The notes beneath the pieces are model-generated. The model saw nothing but the letters and a program-made list of their open reading frames with translations. It was not told the DNA's origin and searched no databases. The position numbers were made by a program, and so were the translations under genes. Of a stretch of 64,000 nt of DNA, positions 45,971 through 60,723 are shown one piece after another; within the stretch, counting starts at the first letter, position 1; every line of letters starts with the position of its first letter. The DNA is from Fimbriimonadaceae bacterium (GTDB lineage Bacteria > Armatimonadota > Fimbriimonadia > Fimbriimonadales > Fimbriimonadaceae): NCBI GenBank assembly GCA_019454105.1, contig CP075364.1, forward strand, positions 1,491,362 through 1,555,361, given 5' to 3'.

Positions 45971-47230
45971 TTGTTCCTGCTCTACAACCTGCTCCTCACC
46001 CTGACCGCGCCTCTCTGGGGCACGTGGATGATTCTGCGTGCCCGCCGGCGGCGGGAGCCGGTGGACTGGAGCGAGCGCGTCGGGGCCTTCCCGTTCTCGC
46101 TGCCCCGCGGGAAGCCTCGGCTCTGGTTGCACGCCGTCTCGGTCGGGGAGGTCATGGCCGCCCTGCCCATCCTGCGGGCCGTCCGCGAGCAAGACCGCGG
46201 GCTTGAGATTGTTCTGAGCGTGACCACCAGCAGCGGCCACCAGACCGCCCGGGAGCGGGCCGAAGGCCTGTATGACCGGCTCGTCTACTTCCCCATCGAC
46301 GTGCCCCGCTTCACCCTGAACGCGATGGTGCGGGTGAAACCGACAGTCGTCGCGGTGATGGAGACCGAGCTCTGGTTCAACTTTCTCTGGGCGGCCAAGG
46401 CGGTGGGAGCGACGACAATGATCGTCAATGGACGGATCAGCGACCGCTCGTTCCCCCGCGCCCAAAGAGTGGCTTTCTTCTATCGTCGCTTGCTGGCGAT
46501 GGTCGATAGGTGCCTGGTGCAGACTCCAACCGACGCCGAGCGGATCCAAGCCCTGGGAGGAAGGGGAGTCGAGGTCTTGGGCAACACCAAGTTCGACGAG
46601 GCCCTCCAGGGCACGGGCGCGGATCCCGACCACTGGCGGCGGGAACTGGGAGTGAGGGATGGCCTGCCGGTGGTGGTGGTGGGATCGACCCGGAGCGAAC
46701 TGGAAGAGACTTGGGCGGTGGCGGCGCTGAGGGGGCTCCAGGCGCAGGCAGTGTGGGCCCCCCGTCACCTCGAACGAGCCGAAGCCGTTGGCGAAATGGC
46801 CCAGGCGGCCGGTTTGCGGGTCGCGCGGCGCTCCGAAGGAGGAACCTTGGCCGGGGCCGACGTGCTCGTTCTCGACACATATGGGGAACTAGCCCAGGTC
46901 TACTCGATCGCAGACGTGGCCATCATCGGTGGGGGGTTCGACCGTCTCGGGGGCCAGAACATCCTCCAACCCCTCGCCCACGGCACGCCTGTGGTGCACG
47001 GGCCCCACATGGAGAATTTCCGTGACGTGGCCAAGGCCGCGACGGAGGCGACTGTGGTCGCCTCTTCTCCGGAAGAACTCGGCTCTCTGGTCCGCGGGCT
47101 GCTTGACGATCCGGCGCGGCGAGGGGCCATGGGCTTGGCCGCCCGCGAGTTGGTCGCCCAAAGCGCAGGAGCCTCCTCACGCTATGCGGCCGCCATCCTT
47201 CATGCGGCGGCCCGCCCAGAGTCCGGATAA
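45971..47230 (+). CDS. waaA: Kdo transferase (3-deoxy-D-manno-octulosonate transferase)
   Basis: Attaches Kdo residues to lipid A precursor at the inner membrane, so it implies an LPS-bearing outer membrane. An N-terminal membrane helix (LFLLYNLLLTLTAP) precedes GT-B domains with GEVMAALPI, the VSVTTSSG strand, ETELWFNFL, TDAERIQALG, VVGSTRSEEL-like region and GGGFDRLGGQNILQPL. The length of 419 residues is normal. The start is TTG at 45971. It directly follows the phytase gene. Confidence 0.93.
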   Translation: MFLLYNLLLTLTAPLWGTWMILRARRRREPVDWSERVGAFPFSLPRGKPRLWLHAVSVGEVMAALPILRAVREQDRGLEIVLSVTTSSGHQTARERAEGLYDRLVYFPIDVPRFTLNAMVRVKPTVVAVMETELWFNFLWAAKAVGATTMIVNGRISDRSFPRAQRVAFFYRRLLAMVDRCLVQTPTDAERIQALGGRGVEVLGNTKFDEALQGTGADPDHWRRELGVRDGLPVVVVGSTRSELEETWAVAALRGLQAQAVWAPRHLERAEAVGEMAQAAGLRVARRSEGGTLAGADVLVLDTYGELAQVYSIADVAIIGGGFDRLGGQNILQPLAHGTPVVHGPHMENFRDVAKAATEATVVASSPEELGSLVRGLLDDPARRGAMGLAARELVAQSAGASSRYAAAILHAAARPESG

Positions 47231-47374: not shown

Positions 47375-48217
47375 GTGAGGCTCGGCAACACTTTGAGACG
47401 CGCGTTCACCCTGATCGAACTGCTCGTGGTCATCGCCATCATCGCGATCCTGGCCGCCCTCCTGTTCCCCGTGTTTGCCCAAGTCAAGGAATCTGCCCGC
47501 AAGACGGCTTGTCTCAGCAACGTCCGGCAGGTCGCCTTCGCGACCTTCATGTACGCCACCGACGACAACGACCGCTTCCCCGCTTGGGCAGCCCGGGCCG
47601 CGCCCATCAACGGCGGAAACACCGACTATCTGCCTCCGGACGTCCAAGTGAGCGGCTACACCAAGAACCGCCAGATCTGGGCCTGCCCCAGCGACGACGG
47701 GCCCCGCGACAACCCCCTCGGCATGCCCTTCTGGAACGGCGACCACCAAAGGAACCCCACCAAGAGGAGCTACGCCTATGTCGGCCCGATCCGGACGCTA
47801 CAAGCCAGGCGGCTCGACTCGAACACCGGCATCTTCGACTTCACCGGGACAGGGAATTGGGTGACCACGGGCCGCTCCACCACCGAACTCAACGCGCCCG
47901 CCGAGACCGTCGCGTGGGTCGAGCAATGGAGCCCCGCCGTGCGCGACCAGTACTACGGCACGGTCTGGGGCAGCGGCTTCATCGAGTGCAACACCTCCAA
48001 GCTGGCGGGAAGGAACTACCCGCCCAAGGGGCCCGTCGACCAACCGCCGCCCGGCTGCGTCACCGAGTACCGGGGCCAGCCGACCCCCGGCCATGGCGGC
48101 AAAGGCCACTACGCCTTCGCCGACGGCCACGCCAAGATCCAGTCCTGGCCGCAGATCCGCCGCAACGACTTCTATCTCTTCAAAGTCGCTAAACCAATCG
48201 AGACCTTCGACCCCTGA
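47375..48217 (+). CDS. DUF1559-like prepilin-type protein with H-X9-DG motif
   Basis: Type IV pilin-like N-terminus with the prepilin cleavage and methylation motif ([15 protein letters not shown]), followed by an [21 protein letters not shown] region and a beta-rich globular part. The C-terminus contains H-X9-DG ([14 protein letters not shown]). That combination is widespread in Armatimonadota and Planctomycetota and functionally unknown. It starts at GTG 47375. The 144-base upstream gap has an 8-bp hairpin (47242-47272) but no RNA family I can name. Confidence 0.87.
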
Positions 48218-48281: not shown

Positions 48282-48790
48282 CTACCGCGTCTGCCAGCTC
48301 TTCCAGTAGTCGGGGTCCTCGATCGCGACCGCGTCCTCGGTCATCCAGAGCGGGTGGAAGGTGTCGAGCATGACGGCCAGCTCTTCGGTCTTGGTGTGAC
48401 CGAGGCTGCGCTCCACCGCCCCGGGCTGCGGCCCGTGGGGGATGCCGAGCGGGTGCATCGTGATCGACCCCTCCTCGATCCCTTTGCGCGAGCCGAACTT
48501 GTCGTTGCAGTAGTAGAGCACCTCGTCGCTGTCCACGTTCGAATGGTTGTAGGGGATCACGATCGCCTCGGGGTGGAAGTCCAGCGCCCGCGGGCAGAAC
48601 GAGCACACCACGAAGTTCCACCCCGTGAACGTCTGGTGGATCGGCGGCGGCAGGTGCAGCTTGCCCGTGATCGGCTGGAAGTCGTTGATGTTGAACGACC
48701 AAGGATAGACATAACCGTCCCAGCCCACGATGTCGAACGGGTGGAACCTGTAGTGGTACTTGGTGTACCGGCCCCGGGCCTTCACCACCT
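48282..48790 (-). pseudogene. Truncated second copy of hmgA (3' half)
   Basis: Encodes about 168 residues nearly identical to the C-terminal part of the HmgA protein at 51894-53051, from VVKARGR to the final SWQTR and stop. Nucleotide differences from the intact copy are mostly at third codon positions. The homology ends at the stop codon on one side and at about 48790 on the other; upstream of that, the frame reads unrelated sequence to the preceding gene. There is no start codon of its own in the homologous part. It lacks the N-terminal domain and is very unlikely to be active. Both repeats have the same orientation. Confidence 0.85.
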
Positions 48791-48820
48791 TGGGGTAACC
48801 CACGGCCTGGCCGTGCGTCT

Positions 48821-49930
48821 TCAGTGTTCGCTGGCAACGGCGGAGACAATTGCGTCTGAAGAGCTTTGCCGCGACCATACGAGACGCAACTTTTTCAATC
48901 GAGGGTCGATTCGGCAGACCTTAAGAACAGGGTGCAGGTTCGTCGGACGTAGCGTCACAACAACCCCTTCTAAGCCCCCGCCGTTGGAACGCACCGTCAT
49001 TCTCGACTGATCTGGGTTGTCGCCATAGTCGAGGTAAGTGACGACCTTTGCGACAACGTTACTCGTCCCAGTGAATGGGTCGAAAAGCGTTAGCTCCTCA
49101 ACCCTAGCGAGTTTCTGACGATCTGTTACCTGATCGACCCAGTAAAAATACCTCTCGTCGAGAACCAACGCGCTGCGCTCGGTCGCGAGCCAGAAAGCCT
49201 GCCTGTATGTGGAGGTCTTCTTCAGCCGTCGCAAAACTCGCCGCTTATTCTCAGTGTACAGCCAGCTCTCGCGTTCACCCAGCACAAGCAGTCCCGACCC
49301 GTGGCGCGCGATCAGGAAGACGCCCGCTTTCTTGAGCCTGGTGTCAAGAACCCACCTTGATCGAGGTCTCAGATCGTTGCCGTATTCTTGCACTTGTCCA
49401 TTGTCAAAAACGAGCGCCTCGCCTTCTGACTTGCCGGGAAAGACAGCCGCTCGGTCGTATCCGAACGCCTCGGACTTTACGTCCGGGAGGTCTGCCCGGA
49501 CCAGCTGCCCTTGCCGCCGAACGGCCGACGCGTCCGCGCCCGACATGAGGTCGTGAAAATCCTTCGACCAAATCCGTAGCGTTTTTCCACTAACCCATGT
49601 AGCGCGGGTGTCCTCGAACTTAGCCTTAGGACTCGAAGAGCGGCCCGTCTGCAGGTCAAGAATTCTTACCGTACCAACTTGGCCCTTCGACTCCGAAACC
49701 AGCAAGAACTTCCCACCGGCGCCCAGTTCGAAGTCCCGAACCTTGGCGGATATCTGGAGCCCCCGTGGTTCGGGATTCTGAATCGGACTTTGCTCCTCGA
49801 ACAGAGTGACGTGCCGGGTGTCAAACTCCCGGCTTGTTCCTCGCCTCATGCTATAAATCACATCTATCGAAGGTAGCTGGTGCTGGTGTCTGGTGGCCAG
49901 TGCTGTCGCGCAAAGTGCGGTTAACATCAT
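48821..49930 (-). CDS. Secreted protein of unknown family
   Basis: A 369-residue protein with a weak signal-like start (MMLTALCATALAT). Repeated strand-like segments (GGKFLLVSESKGQVG, LLVLGERESWLYTEN, ALVLDERYFYWVD) suggest a beta-propeller or similar all-beta fold; no named family is recognised. Its start overlaps the PA14 gene stop by four bases (ATGA), so the two are a unit. Its stop lies 31 bases before the hmgA fragment begins, with a CACGGCCTGGCCGTG palindrome in between. Confidence 0.62.
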   Translation of the reverse strand: MMLTALCATALATRHQHQLPSIDVIYSMRRGTSREFDTRHVTLFEEQSPIQNPEPRGLQISAKVRDFELGAGGKFLLVSESKGQVGTVRILDLQTGRSSSPKAKFEDTRATWVSGKTLRIWSKDFHDLMSGADASAVRRQGQLVRADLPDVKSEAFGYDRAAVFPGKSEGEALVFDNGQVQEYGNDLRPRSRWVLDTRLKKAGVFLIARHGSGLLVLGERESWLYTENKRRVLRRLKKTSTYRQAFWLATERSALVLDERYFYWVDQVTDRQKLARVEELTLFDPFTGTSNVVAKVVTYLDYGDNPDQSRMTVRSNGGGLEGVVVTLRPTNLHPVLKVCRIDPRLKKLRLVWSRQSSSDAIVSAVASEH

Positions 49931-51800
49931 CTCAAGTCAATGTCAACGTCTATAACGTTGGAAAGGAGGCCGGACACGAAGACTCGTTGCGCCGGGAAGA
50001 TGACCGTCTTCTCGGGACCGGTTTGGGCACCCCCTATCCGGTATCGCCCGCCATCGACAAGCGACTGGCTCCAGGAAACAGTTGCGCCGGAATTCTGGCC
50101 CAGACGACCAAGTCGCCAGCGCGAGTCGAAGAAGTAGCTTCCGGTAGCCCACCAACCTTGGTTCCAGTACACGCTTCTCTTCTGGAATGCCTGAGCGATA
50201 GAATGACAACGCTTGAACTGAAACTTAGCTGGATCTCCGGAGAGTCCCTTGACGGAACTAGAAAGGATATTCTTCCCTTCTTGGGAACCAAGGTCCTCTA
50301 TGCGAAGGTAAACGTTTCGCGTCGAAATCTTGTTCTTTGCTACCTCAGTGGCTGTCGGAGGTCTGACGAAGAGTTCTATCCTTACATTAGTAGGTGCCGA
50401 AATACTTGACAAGCCAGATAACCACTTGACTGACTTACCCGCCTTTGAAGTCAGCGGCTGATTTTGAGGAGATATGAAGGCTCGCCAAAAGCCATTTTGG
50501 TACATAAGACCGGCGTCAACGTCGACTTCGTGATCCGTCTCGTTTCCAGCGGTTCCACGGATTGAACTGCAGCCGAGGTAAAGATATGCTGTATCGGCAG
50601 AGTCTTTCCCGCCTAACAGGTCGGGGGACATCACCGTCGTGGTCACAGACGGTATCGCGAATTCACCCCTTGCGTAGGCATAACCAGGCTTCGCCATGGT
50701 GCGGTGAAATGGGCCCGTGTGGTGGGGAGGCGGCGGGAGATCCGGGTCATCGTTCAGCCATTCGTTCTCCGTCATAAGTGCGATCACGGAGCTGTCTCGC
50801 AGAACGTACGCGGTTCCATCCTCGTCGGCCGCACCCTGCGATTCGCGAACGCTCAAGGTTTGGTAGTCGTAGACGGATTCATCGGGTCCGAGGACTTCGA
50901 GAGGATCGCCAGGCTCCAGCGGCTCTCCAAAGCCCAACTCATAGCCTTCGGCGACAGCCGGCAGGATCAAGAGTGGGTCGCGTGTGTTCCACCGCGGGGT
51001 GTCCGGGTCGGCAAGGGCGCTTTCTTCCGGAGTCGGGGACGACAAGGTCGGCATCCCTGTCACGGCATTAGTGTAAACGGCCTTCGAACGAACAAACCGC
51101 TCTTGCCCGTTCGAAATGGTGCCGACGGCATATAGATAATAGTAAGAACCTGGATAACTCAGTTCGGTAATAGGTTGCTGGCCGTTCGTCGGCGAGTCGA
51201 AGTTCTGTGCGCCCGGCTGGTCTGAGTAGAACGTGTGGTATCCAACCGCGCCTGGAACGCTTCGAATGTAAGTCGCGATGGTGCCTGGCCCGGACGAGAC
51301 AACGTTCTGGAAGGGCGGCGCGACCGGATCGACCGCCGCCGTCAGTTCGCTCTCCTGGAACTCCCGCCAGACCGGGTTGGCGAACTGGCGCCAGACGACC
51401 CGGTGGGTGGTCGGGGACGGGCTCCTCACCGTCACCAGCAGGGGGTACGGCTGGCCCGCGTTCAGAGTCACCGGCTGGGGCGGCACAAGGTCGACCGGGC
51501 CCGACTTTCGCGAGACCACCATCCCGTTCACCTTGATCCCCACAGTCGCGTTGTTAGTCACCTCCGACGTGAAGAGCTTCGGGCCGCCTTGCGGCGGCGT
51601 GAAGTAGCCCGACCACCGGACCGAATAGCCGTCCGCCGTCCCGGTCTCCGGCGGCGGCACGACGGACGCGACGATCGTGGGGTCGATCCGGCTCACTTCG
51701 TGCTGCGAGAAGCCGTTGTTCTCAAAGTATTCGGCGGTCAGGCCCTGCGGGGGGGGGGCGTCAGTGCGGCGAGGGCGCAAAGGAAGGCGGCGACGGTCAT
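49927..51800 (-). CDS. PA14-domain secreted protein, frame broken at poly-C tract
   Basis: From residue about 15 the protein starts GLTAEYFENNGFS, a typical PA14 carbohydrate-binding module (strands including SVRWSGYFTPPQGG and the TNNATVGIKVNGMVV loop, to about residue 140). A long region of about 450 residues with FN3-like and unassigned beta segments follows. The long open frame begins only at a TTG (51780) with no signal peptide. An ATG at 51800 in another frame encodes MTVAAFLCALAALTPPP, an ideal signal peptide, which would join the PA14 frame if the ten-C run had nine Cs. A 4-base overlap links it to the next gene. It is either phase-variable, frameshifted or affected by a sequencing error. 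Confidence 0.72.
51749..51758 (-). repeat. C10 homopolymer at signal-peptide junction
   Basis: Ten consecutive G on the plus strand (C on the coding strand) immediately after the signal-peptide codons of the PA14 gene. One base fewer would restore one continuous frame from the ATG at 51800. Confidence 0.9.
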
Positions 51801-51893: not shown

Positions 51894-53051
51894 TTACCGC
51901 GTCTGCCAGCTCTTCCAGTAGTCGGGGTCCTCGATCGCGACCGCGTCCTCCGTCATCCAGAGCGGGTGGAACGTGTCGAGCATCACCGCCAGTTCCTCCG
52001 TCTTGGTGTGCCCGAGGCTGCGCTCCACCGCCCCGGGCTGCGGCCCGTGGGGGATGCCCAGCGGGTGCATGGTAATCGAGCCCTCCTCAATCCCCTTGCG
52101 CGAGCCGAACTTGTCGTTGCAGTAGTAGAGCACCTCGTCGCTGTCCACGTTCGAATGGTTGTAGGGGATCACGATCGCCTCGGGGTGGAAGTCCAGCATC
52201 CGGGGGCAGAACGAGCACACCACGAAGTTCCACCCCGTGAACGTCTGGTGGATCGGCGGCGGCAGGTGCAGCTTGCCCGTGATCGGCTGGAAGTCGTTGA
52301 TGTTGAAAGTCCAAGGATAGACATATCCGTCCCAGCCCACGATGTCGAACGGGTGGAACTTGTAGTGGTACTTGGTGTGCCGCCCGCGCGCCTTCACCAC
52401 CACATAGAAGTCGCCCGCCTCGTCGTATGTCTTGAGCTCCACCGGCGGATGGATGTCCCGTTCTGAGTAGGGCGCTTCCTCCAAGAGCTGACCATATTGA
52501 TTGCGATAGTTCTTGGGGATCGTGACCGGCCCGTAGCTCTCGATCGTCAGCATCCGCACCGGCAGCGAGTCGAAGGCGATCTTCCAGATCGTCCCGCGCG
52601 GGATCACAAGGTAGTCGCCCGGCTTGAACGGCACGTCGCCGTACATCGAGTGCAGCGTCCCGCTCCCGTCGTGGACGAAAAGGATCTCGTCCGCCTGCGC
52701 GTTCTTGAAAAAGTCGGCCATCTGTTCGGCGACCAAAGACTGGCTCCAGACCACGTCGTTGTTGCCCATCAGCGGGATGCGCCCGCTGATCGCGTCGCCG
52801 CAGGGCTTGAGCTTGCTGGTCTTGAAATGGCGGTGGCGCAGGGCCTCGTCCTTCAGGTATCGCGGCGCGACCGGGCCCATGTCCTCCCAACCCGCGACCT
52901 CGGTCGGCAGGTTGATGTGGTACATCGTGCTCATCATGTCGCTGAAGCCGTGGGTGCTGAAGAGCTGCTCCGAATAAAGCCCCCCGTCCGGCTTGCGGAA
53001 CTGGACGTGCTTCTTGGCCGGCAGGTGGCCGAGTCGGTGGTATCGCGGCAT
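51894..53051 (-). CDS. hmgA: Homogentisate 1,2-dioxygenase family protein
   Basis: Non-heme Fe(II) ring-opening dioxygenase of tyrosine/phenylalanine degradation, converting homogentisate to maleylacetoacetate. The bicupin pattern is clear: HDGSGTLHSMYGDVPFKPGDY with PRGTIWKI in the N-terminal cupin; FHPFDIVGWDGYVYPW, PYNHSNVDSDEVLYY and MHPLGIPHGPQPG in the C-terminal half, which carry the expected His and acidic iron ligands. The length of 385 residues matches the short bacterial form. No hmgB/C or hpd is nearby, so it stands alone. Its 3' part is duplicated at 48282-48790. Confidence 0.88.
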   Translation of the reverse strand: MPRYHRLGHLPAKKHVQFRKPDGGLYSEQLFSTHGFSDMMSTMYHINLPTEVAGWEDMGPVAPRYLKDEALRHRHFKTSKLKPCGDAISGRIPLMGNNDVVWSQSLVAEQMADFFKNAQADEILFVHDGSGTLHSMYGDVPFKPGDYLVIPRGTIWKIAFDSLPVRMLTIESYGPVTIPKNYRNQYGQLLEEAPYSERDIHPPVELKTYDEAGDFYVVVKARGRHTKYHYKFHPFDIVGWDGYVYPWTFNINDFQPITGKLHLPPPIHQTFTGWNFVVCSFCPRMLDFHPEAIVIPYNHSNVDSDEVLYYCNDKFGSRKGIEEGSITMHPLGIPHGPQPGAVERSLGHTKTEELAVMLDTFHPLWMTEDAVAIEDPDYWKSWQTR

Positions 53052-57576: not shown

Positions 57577-60500
57577 TCACCGCCAGTCGCCAATCAGCAC
57601 GAACGGAGCCCAGAAGTAGGGGTGGGCGCGGTTCTTGTCTTGCCGCAGTTTCAGCACAGCGGCGCGGAGGGCCTCGCCTTTGACACGGCCCGACGCCAGG
57701 TTCCGATAAAAGTCCACCATCAGGTCGGCGGTGCTCGCGTCGTTCACCGCCCACTGGGACACGACCTGGGTCGGGCATCCGGCCACGAAGAGCGACCAGG
57801 TCAGGCCGACCATGCCTTCGCCCGAACGCACCTCGCCACGGGCCGTGTTGCACGCCGAGAGGACGACCATCTCGGCCCGAAGGCTGAGCTGGTTGATCTC
57901 CCGGGCGGTGAGGAAGCCGTCCTCCTTGGAGCCCTGGGGCGGTTGGGCAAGGATGACGTTGCTCAAGAGCGGAGAGGCGTCGTTGACGAAGCCATGGGTG
58001 GCAAGATGGATGTAGCGGTGGTCGGGCGCAAGGGCCTTGACCCGGTCCTCTTGGGCCCCGGAGCCCACCAAGAGCGTCGCCCCCGGGAAGAGCTTCCCGA
58101 GCTCGTCCGCCTCCCGCTGGGTGCCGGGCAAGGGCACGATCGCCCCGGCCGAGGCCTCGGGGGTGTACTCGCGCGACAGCGAGTCGATGGCCCGCGAAAG
58201 CGAGTCGATCGCCCGGGAGGGGAGGTCGATCGGGCGGCTAGGCAGGTCGATGGGCCGCGATGGCTGGTCGATGGGCCGGGACGGCAAGTCGATCGGGCGC
58301 GAAGGCTGGTCGATCGGCCTCGATGGCTGGTCGATCGGGCGGCTCGGGGTGTCGATCGGCCGCTCGCCGGGCTCCAACGACAGGGCGGCGAACCGGGCCC
58401 CGGTGCCAAAGTCGGGGTTGGCGACGACGAGCAGTTCTTTCGGCACTTTCTCCCTCTTGGGGGCGGCGAGGGCGCGGGCGACCCCGGTCGCCGAATACGC
58501 ATAGGCCACCTCGTGCCGGTCGATCAGGTACTCGCCGGGGGCAGGCATCAGGACGGCAAAGGGCACGTCCCAGAGCGCGCTGTCCGGACAGACGACGATC
58601 CGCTTCTTGCCCTGGAGATGCTTGGCCACCGGGGCCAGGAGGTCAGCATAGAGACCTTGGGCCAGCTCGTCCACTTGGCCCGCGGGAGTGGCGGCCGCCT
58701 TGCGCAGAGCCGCCGCGCGCTCGCGGAGGTCAGGCAGATAGGTCTTGCGCGACGACCCGTCGATCCGCACCACGCCGCCCTCCTTCCGAAGAACCATGAC
58801 GTTGATCGCGTATTCGGACACGGCGTACTCGACCAGGGCGGTGTCGTCTGGGAGGAGCCGCCCCACCTCTTCGGCCGTGGTCGTTTCGGCCAGGCGGGCC
58901 GCTTTCAGTCCAGGACGACGGGCGTAGACCGTGTTCGTGAACTCTTCCAGCCGCCGCTCCGCCTCGCGCAGCTCTTTGGCGAGGGCTTCGTAGCGCTTCT
59001 TGGCCCCGACCTGGTTCTGGACCCCCTCTCCCAGCATCCGTGCGCCGAGCTCGTCGGCACGGGCCCGGAGCTCGCGCTCGGTCTGCCGCTCCTGGTCGGT
59101 CATGCCGGTCTCGACCACCACCCGTCCAAAGGTGAGGAGGTCGAGAAGGCCCCTGGCCTTCATCCGCTGGACGACGTCGAACGACTCGTTCGGCCGGCCC
59201 AGGCGGGTGAGCACGTCGGCGAACTGCTGGTACACCTGGGCGCGACGGCCCAGATAGCTGGCCTTCGCCTCGGTGAGGTCGCCCAGTCCGATGCGCACGG
59301 CCTCGAAACGGGTCAGGGCCTCGGTGTAGTCCTTCTCCGCCTCGGCGTACTGCTCTTGGCGGTACAAGGCTTCGGCCCGATTGGCGAGACTTGTGGCAGC
59401 GAAAGGCCGGGCGCCCTGTTCTTCATAGTCGTCGAAGGCTCTCTTGAAGAGCCTGGCCGCCCCTTCAAAGTCTCCTTCGTCGAAGGCGAGGTTGCCCAGG
59501 GAGTTCGTGACCGTGGCCGCATCCAGGGCCGCACCGGCCTCTTCGAACAATGCGGCAGCCTTATTGAGCCGTTCCCGGGCGGTGTCGAAGTCGCGGGCGT
59601 CCCGGGCCACCTCACCGAGCGACCCGAAGCACCGTGCCTGGCCGATCTTGTCGCCAAGCTCCTCATAGAGCGCGAGGGCTTCTTGGAGCCGCTGTCCGCC
59701 GAGTTCCGATTGTCCCTGACGATGGAGAACGACTCCGAGGCTCTGGAGGGCCTGAGCCGCGCCTGTCCGGTCGCCGACCAAGCGGGCCGTTTCCAAGGCG
59801 CGTTCGTAATATTTTTGAGCGACGCCCAACTGGCCGATGGACTCGCTCCAGCTGCCGAGGACGGCGAGGCGGCTGACGACGGTGCGCTGGTCGCCCATAG
59901 CCTCGGCCAAGCGAAGGGCCCGGTCGTAATAGCCGAGCGCCAGTGAAAACTGCCCGACTTCTTCGTACTCCTCGCCCAGTTTGGCCAGGGCCTCGCCCTC
60001 AAGCGGGAAGAGGTTGGCCTCGCGGGCCATGTTCGCGGCGGCCACGAGAGACTCGACCGCCCGGCGGTGGTCGCCCAGCCGCGAGCTAGCCGACCCGGCC
60101 ACGATCAAGCTGAAGGCCTCGTAAACGGTCGCCTTGGAGTCGGCGTAGACGGCCCGTGCCCGGTTGGCCCGTGCCAGGCTGTCGGCTGGGTCGGTGGCTT
60201 CGACCAGCACGGCGATCGTCAACTCCGATTCAGCCGCACCCAGCCTGTCGCCGCCTTCTGTCGAAGCCTTGAGGGCCTCCTTGAGCATGCCGAGGGCCCT
60301 GTCGGTCTGACCGAGCCGGGTCTCGATGTCCGCGGCCTCCCGAAGCACGGCGCCCTTGAGCGCCTTGTCCCCAATCTCATTGGCGGCCGTGACAGCCTCG
60401 CCCATCGCCAATCGGGCCTCGTCCAACTGGCCGGACATTCGGTGGGCCTTCGCCAGCCCGCGCGCTGCCAAGACCCGGCCGGGCCGGTCGCCTTGGCTTT

Positions 60501-60723
60501 TGGCCAAGCTCAGGGCCTCGCCGAACCTGGAGAAGGCCTCCGAAGTCTTCCCGGCGTCCAAAAGCTTTTGAGCTTCGTCGACCAACGTTCGCACGCTTTG
60601 CGACGGGGCCCGACCATCGTCGGACTGGGCGAGCGCGCCACCAGTCGGCCATGCCACAAGGCAGAGCACGACGGCTAGCGCCAGACTGATTCGACCAAGC
60701 GGGATAAACAAGCGACGACTCAT
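57577..60723 (-). CDS. Exported TPR-CHAT protein
   Basis: Signal peptide at residues about 1-33 (LALAVVLCLVAWPTGGALAQ), then around 500 residues of TPR-like helical repeats (for example ALGYYDRALRLAEAMGD, AQKYYERALETARLVGD), a coiled-coil linker, and a C-terminal CHAT (caspase-HetF-associated) domain from about residue 640. The dyad appears intact: His910 in IHLATHGFVND and Cys958 in VVLSACNTARG. CHAT proteins are caspase/separase-like peptidases, here predicted to act outside the cytoplasm. Residues 789-851 are nine heptapeptide repeats. It follows the cyclase-STAND gene by 27 bases, so one transcript is likely. Confidence 0.9.
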   Translation of the reverse strand: MSRRLFIPLGRISLALAVVLCLVAWPTGGALAQSDDGRAPSQSVRTLVDEAQKLLDAGKTSEAFSRFGEALSLAKSQGDRPGRVLAARGLAKAHRMSGQLDEARLAMGEAVTAANEIGDKALKGAVLREAADIETRLGQTDRALGMLKEALKASTEGGDRLGAAESELTIAVLVEATDPADSLARANRARAVYADSKATVYEAFSLIVAGSASSRLGDHRRAVESLVAAANMAREANLFPLEGEALAKLGEEYEEVGQFSLALGYYDRALRLAEAMGDQRTVVSRLAVLGSWSESIGQLGVAQKYYERALETARLVGDRTGAAQALQSLGVVLHRQGQSELGGQRLQEALALYEELGDKIGQARCFGSLGEVARDARDFDTARERLNKAAALFEEAGAALDAATVTNSLGNLAFDEGDFEGAARLFKRAFDDYEEQGARPFAATSLANRAEALYRQEQYAEAEKDYTEALTRFEAVRIGLGDLTEAKASYLGRRAQVYQQFADVLTRLGRPNESFDVVQRMKARGLLDLLTFGRVVVETGMTDQERQTERELRARADELGARMLGEGVQNQVGAKKRYEALAKELREAERRLEEFTNTVYARRPGLKAARLAETTTAEEVGRLLPDDTALVEYAVSEYAINVMVLRKEGGVVRIDGSSRKTYLPDLRERAAALRKAAATPAGQVDELAQGLYADLLAPVAKHLQGKKRIVVCPDSALWDVPFAVLMPAPGEYLIDRHEVAYAYSATGVARALAAPKREKVPKELLVVANPDFGTGARFAALSLEPGERPIDTPSRPIDQPSRPIDQPSRPIDLPSRPIDQPSRPIDLPSRPIDLPSRAIDSLSRAIDSLSREYTPEASAGAIVPLPGTQREADELGKLFPGATLLVGSGAQEDRVKALAPDHRYIHLATHGFVNDASPLLSNVILAQPPQGSKEDGFLTAREINQLSLRAEMVVLSACNTARGEVRSGEGMVGLTWSLFVAGCPTQVVSQWAVNDASTADLMVDFYRNLASGRVKGEALRAAVLKLRQDKNRAHPYFWAPFVLIGDWR
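58171..58359 (-). repeat. Nine tandem 21-nt repeats coding heptapeptides
   Basis: Nine in-frame units of 21 bases encode PIDTPSR, PIDQPSR (3x), PIDLPSR (3x) and AIDSLSR (2x), inside the CHAT domain between predicted strands. Units differ mainly at the fourth and fifth residues. Such arrays can change length by slippage or recombination without breaking the frame. Confidence 0.85.

Follow-up and report, generated by a model that had tools for sequence, protein, structure and literature searches.

A C10 tract at the end of a signal-peptide-like leader: candidate phase switch in a putative phase-variable secretome of Fimbriimonadaceae

A run of ten C separates a hydrophobic leader from the reading frame of a PA14-domain protein in a Fimbriimonadaceae genome, raising the question of whether the gene is reversibly switched, misread in the assembly or inactivated. 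The original prediction proposed slipped-strand phase variation. We analysed the 64,000-nucleotide stretch that carries the locus (the window), the genome from which it comes (2.74 Mb, one contig; the source genome) and genomes of relatives. Slipped-strand phase variation is the reading best supported by the recurrence of similar tracts genome-wide and in relatives, although nine C proved not to restore the frame and tract length alone proved unremarkable.

The C10 tract and its locus

The minus-strand run at 51749–51758 comprises exactly ten C, as had been claimed. It begins right after codon 14 of the hydrophobic leader MTVAAFLCALAALT, read from ATG 51800, and is soon followed by PPPRRA*; the leader frame thus reads MTVAAFLCALAALTPPPRRA up to a stop at 51738–51740, in agreement with the predicted frame break. 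The PA14 frame, which carries QGLTAEYF with CAG at 51747, differs from that of the leader. Translation of tracts of 6–13 C joined the leader to the PA14 open reading frame (ORF) only at 8 or 11 C, leaving 9 and 10 out of frame; nine C, said to restore the frame, instead led to a stop (MTVAAFLCALAALTPPPAGPDRRIL*). The signal peptide, described as clean, is indeed hydrophobic and signal-peptide-like, but it is short and its n-region carries no positive charge; we saw no obvious cleavage site in it. Similar protein starts occur in the lineage (MWSLLLTLAALT at window 44945; MIALFAAVLMLA in G009, a genome of another genus of the same family). Past the tract the ORF is intact, with 617 open codons and native codon usage.

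The length of the tract was ruled out as evidence in its own right, as dinucleotide-shuffled windows contained a mean of 0.60 C10 runs, and at least one in 33 of 100 shuffles. A C10 in 64 kb is therefore unremarkable by chance, and the evidence lies in where the tract sits. The longest other C/G run in the window is at most 7 nt. The sequence TTGACA-N14–20-TANNNT occurs nowhere in the window, so a switch in a promoter spacer was not found at the PA14 locus.

The ORF past the tract encodes P0001, in which nothing apart from PA14 scored above any curated cut-off; it is solely the name of this domain that suggests carbohydrate binding. The PA14 gene and the second gene are probably in the same operon, and because the stop and start overlap by 4 nt, the OFF state may lower expression of the second gene too. 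A direct repeat of 507 bp (95% identity; window 48283–48789 and 51895–52401), made up of the 3′ end of the homogentisate dioxygenase-like gene, brackets the operon. In three relatives (L328, L329 and L330) the dioxygenase-like protein is 89, 86 and 83% identical, and next to its gene stands, in convergent orientation, a glycosyltransferase gene that matches the one at window 45971–47230, with the PA14 operon absent. A lineage-specific insertion therefore probably comprises the operon, the repeat and a prepilin-like gene at 47375, and the repeat-bracketed arrangement looks like insertion by recombination or duplication. In a search for orthologues in which to compare tract length, P0001 had no more than weak matches among 100 relatives, and the GTDB species genomes gave none. 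One weak relative, in genome G012, carries a normal signal peptide, MKICQLGFAVLGTLVVIGANA, shortly ahead of GPTAEYFDNSDWTQHKV (with the matching GPTAEYF), the counterpart of P0001 GLTAEYFENNGFSQHEV; this supports the idea that the PA14 part belongs after a signal peptide. Scans for tRNA, Rfam and NCBIfam matches returned nothing relevant. Elsewhere in the window, the minus strand at 57577–60723 encodes a 1,048-aa TPR-rich protein with RPIDQPS/RPIDLPS-type heptapeptide repeats in its second half.

Table 1 Features of the PA14 locus (window positions) and long C/G tracts at signal-peptide ends and in promoter spacers.
Feature	Position	Strand	Tract	Remarks
C10 homopolymer (sense strand C), proposed switch; signal-peptide end	51749..51758	-	C10	OFF
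Leader frame	51738..51800	-		ATG 51800, MTVAAFLCALAALTPPPRRA, stop; signal-peptide-like, ends in tract (OFF state)
Secreted-protein ORF P0001	49927..51780	-		617 codons from TTG 51780; other frame than leader at ten C
PA14 domain, P0001 residues 12–114	51439..51747	-		Pfam PF07691, 30.2 bits versus cut-off 24
Second gene	48821..49930	-		4-nt overlap of its start with the PA14 stop; matches neither Pfam nor NCBIfam
Homogentisate 1,2-dioxygenase-like gene	51894..53051	-		Upstream; conserved left flank
Truncated second copy of 3′ end of dioxygenase-like gene	48282..48803	-		507 bp, 95% identity
Signal-peptide end, L059	C1:1353928		C9	OFF; TTG start behind AGGAG
Signal-peptide end, L056	C1:1216084		G9	OFF; MKQTAILRAFTLAIVAVSSLGG, mature frame reads GASAQEPP
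Signal-peptide end, L057	C1:1230901		G9	ON; MGRKKNRIVWLAFVGLTGGGYAQ
Signal-peptide end, L175	G009 (other genus, same family)		G12	OFF
Signal-peptide end, L176 and 71% identical paralogue L179	G009		G9	OFF
Signal-peptide end, L186	G009		C13	OFF
Signal-peptide end, L394	G037		G13	ON
Signal-peptide end, L403	G117 (other family of phylum)		G9	ON
Promoter spacer, L054	L054:4987–5009 (C1:303567)		G9	TTGACA-17-TAGCGT
Promoter spacer, L055	L055:5001–5030 (C1:1190423)		G9	TTGACA-17-TAGGCT; paralogue of L054
Promoter spacer, L061	L061:3322 (C1:1747745)		G8	TTGACA-17-TACTGT
Promoter spacer, L061	L061:5001 (C1:1749424)		G10	TTGACA-20-TAACTT

Long C/G tracts in the source genome and its relatives

The source genome contains 15 C/G tracts of at least 9 nt (lengths 9–16) and 15 of exactly 8. 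We tested the placement of the full list of tracts of at least 8 nt against control runs from a 244-kb sample (the window plus nine 20-kb stretches), applying identical fixed classifiers to all tracts and controls. The signal-peptide classifier used is a strict one; a looser predecessor had flagged 94 matches among 415 short control runs. A signal-peptide junction was called when a start codon lay 24–90 nt upstream and opened a hydrophobic peptide without acidic residues, and when the downstream ORF had at least 100 codons, native codon usage and its own frame closed within 200 nt upstream. A promoter spacer was called when at least 5 of 6 positions of TTGACA and a TA-starting −10 box enclosed the tract in the spacer and an ORF followed.

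Among tracts of at least 9 nt, 4/15 lay at signal-peptide junctions (3 of them out of frame) and 3/15 in promoter spacers; for tracts of 8 the counts were 0/15 and 1/15. Control runs gave 2 junctions and no spacers at 6–7 nt (n = 72), 5 and 1 at 5 nt (n = 342) and 33 and 6 at 4 nt (n = 1,409). Either class thus accounted for 7/15 long tracts versus 47/1,823 runs of 4–7 nt (Fisher P = 7e-8), a P value to be read as a guide because the classifier was built after the first cases had been seen, with the other genomes as the independent check. Roughly 2% of short C/G runs resemble junctions as well, so one single case could be chance. The position of long C/G tracts in this genome is non-random.

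At signal-peptide ends, the source genome has three paralogues with a common junction (L056, L057 and L059), two of them OFF and one ON. Together with L175, L176 and L394 from relatives, they form one secreted superfamily with a mutual identity of about 20–30%, and P0001 falls outside it. Conservation of the tract position among orthologues was considered and rejected: the orthologues of L056 in G009 (47% identical) have no tract in the signal peptide, one of them carrying a G9 further upstream, so tract positions are not conserved at the family level. Many exported proteins of this family have in common a C-terminal domain of about 150 aa that ends VDIEQARW (alignment A1, profile positions ~362–511; 20 matches in the source genome); it had no Pfam match in the three proteins scanned and is possibly a sorting or surface domain.

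The promoters with tract-bearing spacers in the source genome, at L054, L055 and L061, all precede small proteins with hydrophobic N-termini. Across 121 Armatimonadota genomes, 17 genomes had the poly-G spacer pattern, at 29 distinct sites, and 6 genomes had the poly-C pattern, at 8 sites, each with 0 occurrences of the reversed pattern, an imperfect control in that TTGACA is itself a promoter motif. A hydrophobic N-terminus was found at 23 of the 25 sites followed by an ORF, under a threshold that 36% of the source genome's genes pass (P = 8e-9). The start codon mostly lies 4–11 nt past the −10 box, which suggests that the leader RNA is very short or absent. In the source genome only six promoters combine a perfect TTGACA with a short leader ahead of ATG, one of them poly-G; with so few, they should seldom coincide by chance with the rare G8 runs.

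Further G tracts of the source genome lie close to start codons. Its longest tract, a G16 (L062:5001–5016; C1:1909534–1909549), is 17–32 nt upstream of an ATG that opens a 118-aa Cys-rich exported protein, and 2.3 kb away a G8 with an adjacent TAACTT stands before another small exported protein. L058:5001 and L060:5001 (C1:1341008 and 1563486) each have a G9 shortly upstream of the start, with no clear TTGACA; their exported products, of ~365 aa and without a Pfam match, are paralogues with 44% identity.

Tract length differs between related copies within single genomes. In G011, near-identical copies read GATTGACATA-C10/C11/C12-TATCCT (L230, L232 and L231) with agreeing −35 and −10 boxes. These related promoters lie on contig 16, where L230, L231 and L232 have spacers with C10, C12 and C11, respectively; two of them drive nearly identical exported proteins of 486–487 aa and the third precedes a diverged gene. 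Near-identical copies in G091 have G9 and G8 with agreeing boxes, one copy being near a contig end, and G090 has two TTGACA-poly-G copies on one contig, G11 and G12. The signal-peptide-end copies in G117 have G9 (ON) and, twice, G10, the G10 copies lying at contig ends where the assembly is less sure.

A proposed reversible switch and its alternatives

The C10 locus combines an early, long and perfect homopolymer with an intact downstream frame and recurrence of the design at several loci, which are features of a translational slipped-strand locus. We consider it probable that the C10 is a slipped-strand phase switch caught in the OFF state, as part of a putative phase-variable secretome. The tract would be a hypermutable homopolymer at the signal-peptide end of a secreted PA14 protein, gaining or losing C residues by slipped-strand mispairing during replication. 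Only lengths of 8, 11, 14 and so on would fuse the leader to the PA14 frame; ON cells would export the protein, OFF cells would stop after about 20 residues, and the assembled genome would represent the OFF state. We infer that the tract slips in living populations and that ON means export. It would belong to a lineage-wide set of two kinds, in which tracts at signal-peptide ends may act as translational switches, whereas those that separate −35 from −10 boxes ahead of genes for exported proteins may act on transcription through spacer length. Similar runs in like positions precede many exported proteins of relatives, so the C10 is probably a member of a set of reversible switches.

An assembly or base-calling error, already named as the alternative in the original prediction, would mean that the true tract has 11 (or 8) C and that the gene is intact and constitutively exported. 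Ten-base homopolymers are difficult for long reads, and the three OFF tracts of the source genome are all one base short, so that adding one base restores the frame, the typical direction of under-calling. At L174 and L190, the two ends of the G009 contig, stretches of C13, C18 and C31 with an A run behind them are probably artefacts of assembly. Against this, in the source genome, every internal run of 8–9 examined in long or conserved genes keeps the frame (accC-like G9, lipoprotein C9, acyltransferase-like C8, NusA-like G8, CysS-like G8 and others), which argues against a general homopolymer error, and the OFF tracts L175 and L176 of G009 differ from the closest working length by +1 rather than −1. 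Nor would an error account for the concentration of long tracts at signal peptides and in promoter spacers. We regard an error at the C10 as unlikely and a real state as the likelier case.

A fixed frameshift, in a recently inactivated and decaying gene of a lineage-specific insertion, is improbable. It would fit the position of the operon, which is missing from close relatives, within an insertion that a duplicated gene end flanks, and the lack of a close orthologue of P0001, but the 617 codons are stop-free with native codon usage, the sole lesion is at the most slippable position, and sibling loci of the same design include some that are in frame. Long homopolymers can induce RNA polymerase slippage, and on the run of ten C either such transcriptional slippage or a frameshift by the ribosome could yield a fraction of in-frame product from fixed DNA; the DNA design would look identical, yet the promoter-spacer class and the length differences between DNA copies would stay unexplained, and we hold this to be quite improbable. 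Least credible of all is a cytoplasmic protein started at TTG 51780, which precedes any other start codon in the open frame and is the likely choice of an automatic annotator, with the out-of-frame hydrophobic leader a coincidence, given that PA14-type proteins are usually exported, that in the G012 relative a signal peptide precedes the matching start and that junctions occur at about 2% of short runs versus 4/15 long ones.

Known systems and significance

The slipped-strand reading has precedents. In Helicobacter pylori oipA, 5′ CT repeats decide expression of a surface protein (PMC10564699), and 5′ poly-G repeats do so in Neisseria hmbR/hpuAB (PMC3786947). As there, reading of the remainder of a gene for an exported protein would be gated by a slippable repeat close to its 5′ end; unlike there, the phylum is another one, the proteins are unrelated, the poly-C/G tract is at the signal-peptide end, and the variation is a predicted one. 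In porA of Neisseria meningitidis and tp0126 of Treponema pallidum, poly-G separates −35 from −10, and the optimal spacing is 17 bp (PMC7864442). The promoter-spacer siblings resemble these, with poly-G between the boxes and several spacers of exactly 17 bp; the likeness covers L054, L055 and L061, not the window tract, and differs in that most start codons come just 4–11 nt past the −10 box and that the products are small uncharacterized exported proteins rather than porins. A survey of prokaryotes described 5′ homopolymeric tracts as a general, reversible device for gene inactivation, with poly-A/T of 3–7 nt over-represented and poly-C/G generally not (PMC2831843); the tracts described here share the placement near 5′ ends but are poly-C/G of 8–16 nt.

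On a wider scale, the balance tips slightly towards a repertoire in which Fimbriimonadaceae and other Armatimonadota independently switch many lineage-specific exported proteins by poly-G/C tracts at two standard positions, the signal-peptide end and a promoter spacer of about 17 bp that is followed by a very short leader, diversifying their surface as host-associated pathogens do. The mechanism is already known; novelty appears to lie in the organism group, in the gene families and in the two-position repertoire. A non-exhaustive literature search found no report joining phase variation with Armatimonadota or Fimbriimonas, and the repertoire, if true, would be the first of its kind described in Armatimonadota.

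Automatic annotation will drop such genes, omit their signal peptide or label them as frameshift errors. Secreted families with no Pfam or NCBIfam match would gain a first functional handle. Homopolymer phase variation has been studied mostly in host-associated bacteria, and this kind is known mostly from pathogens. We infer that the heterogeneity is selected for, through escape from phages or grazers or through surface contacts; a repertoire of this sort in a largely uncultured environmental phylum would, if true, point to selection other than host immunity, for example by phages or grazers.
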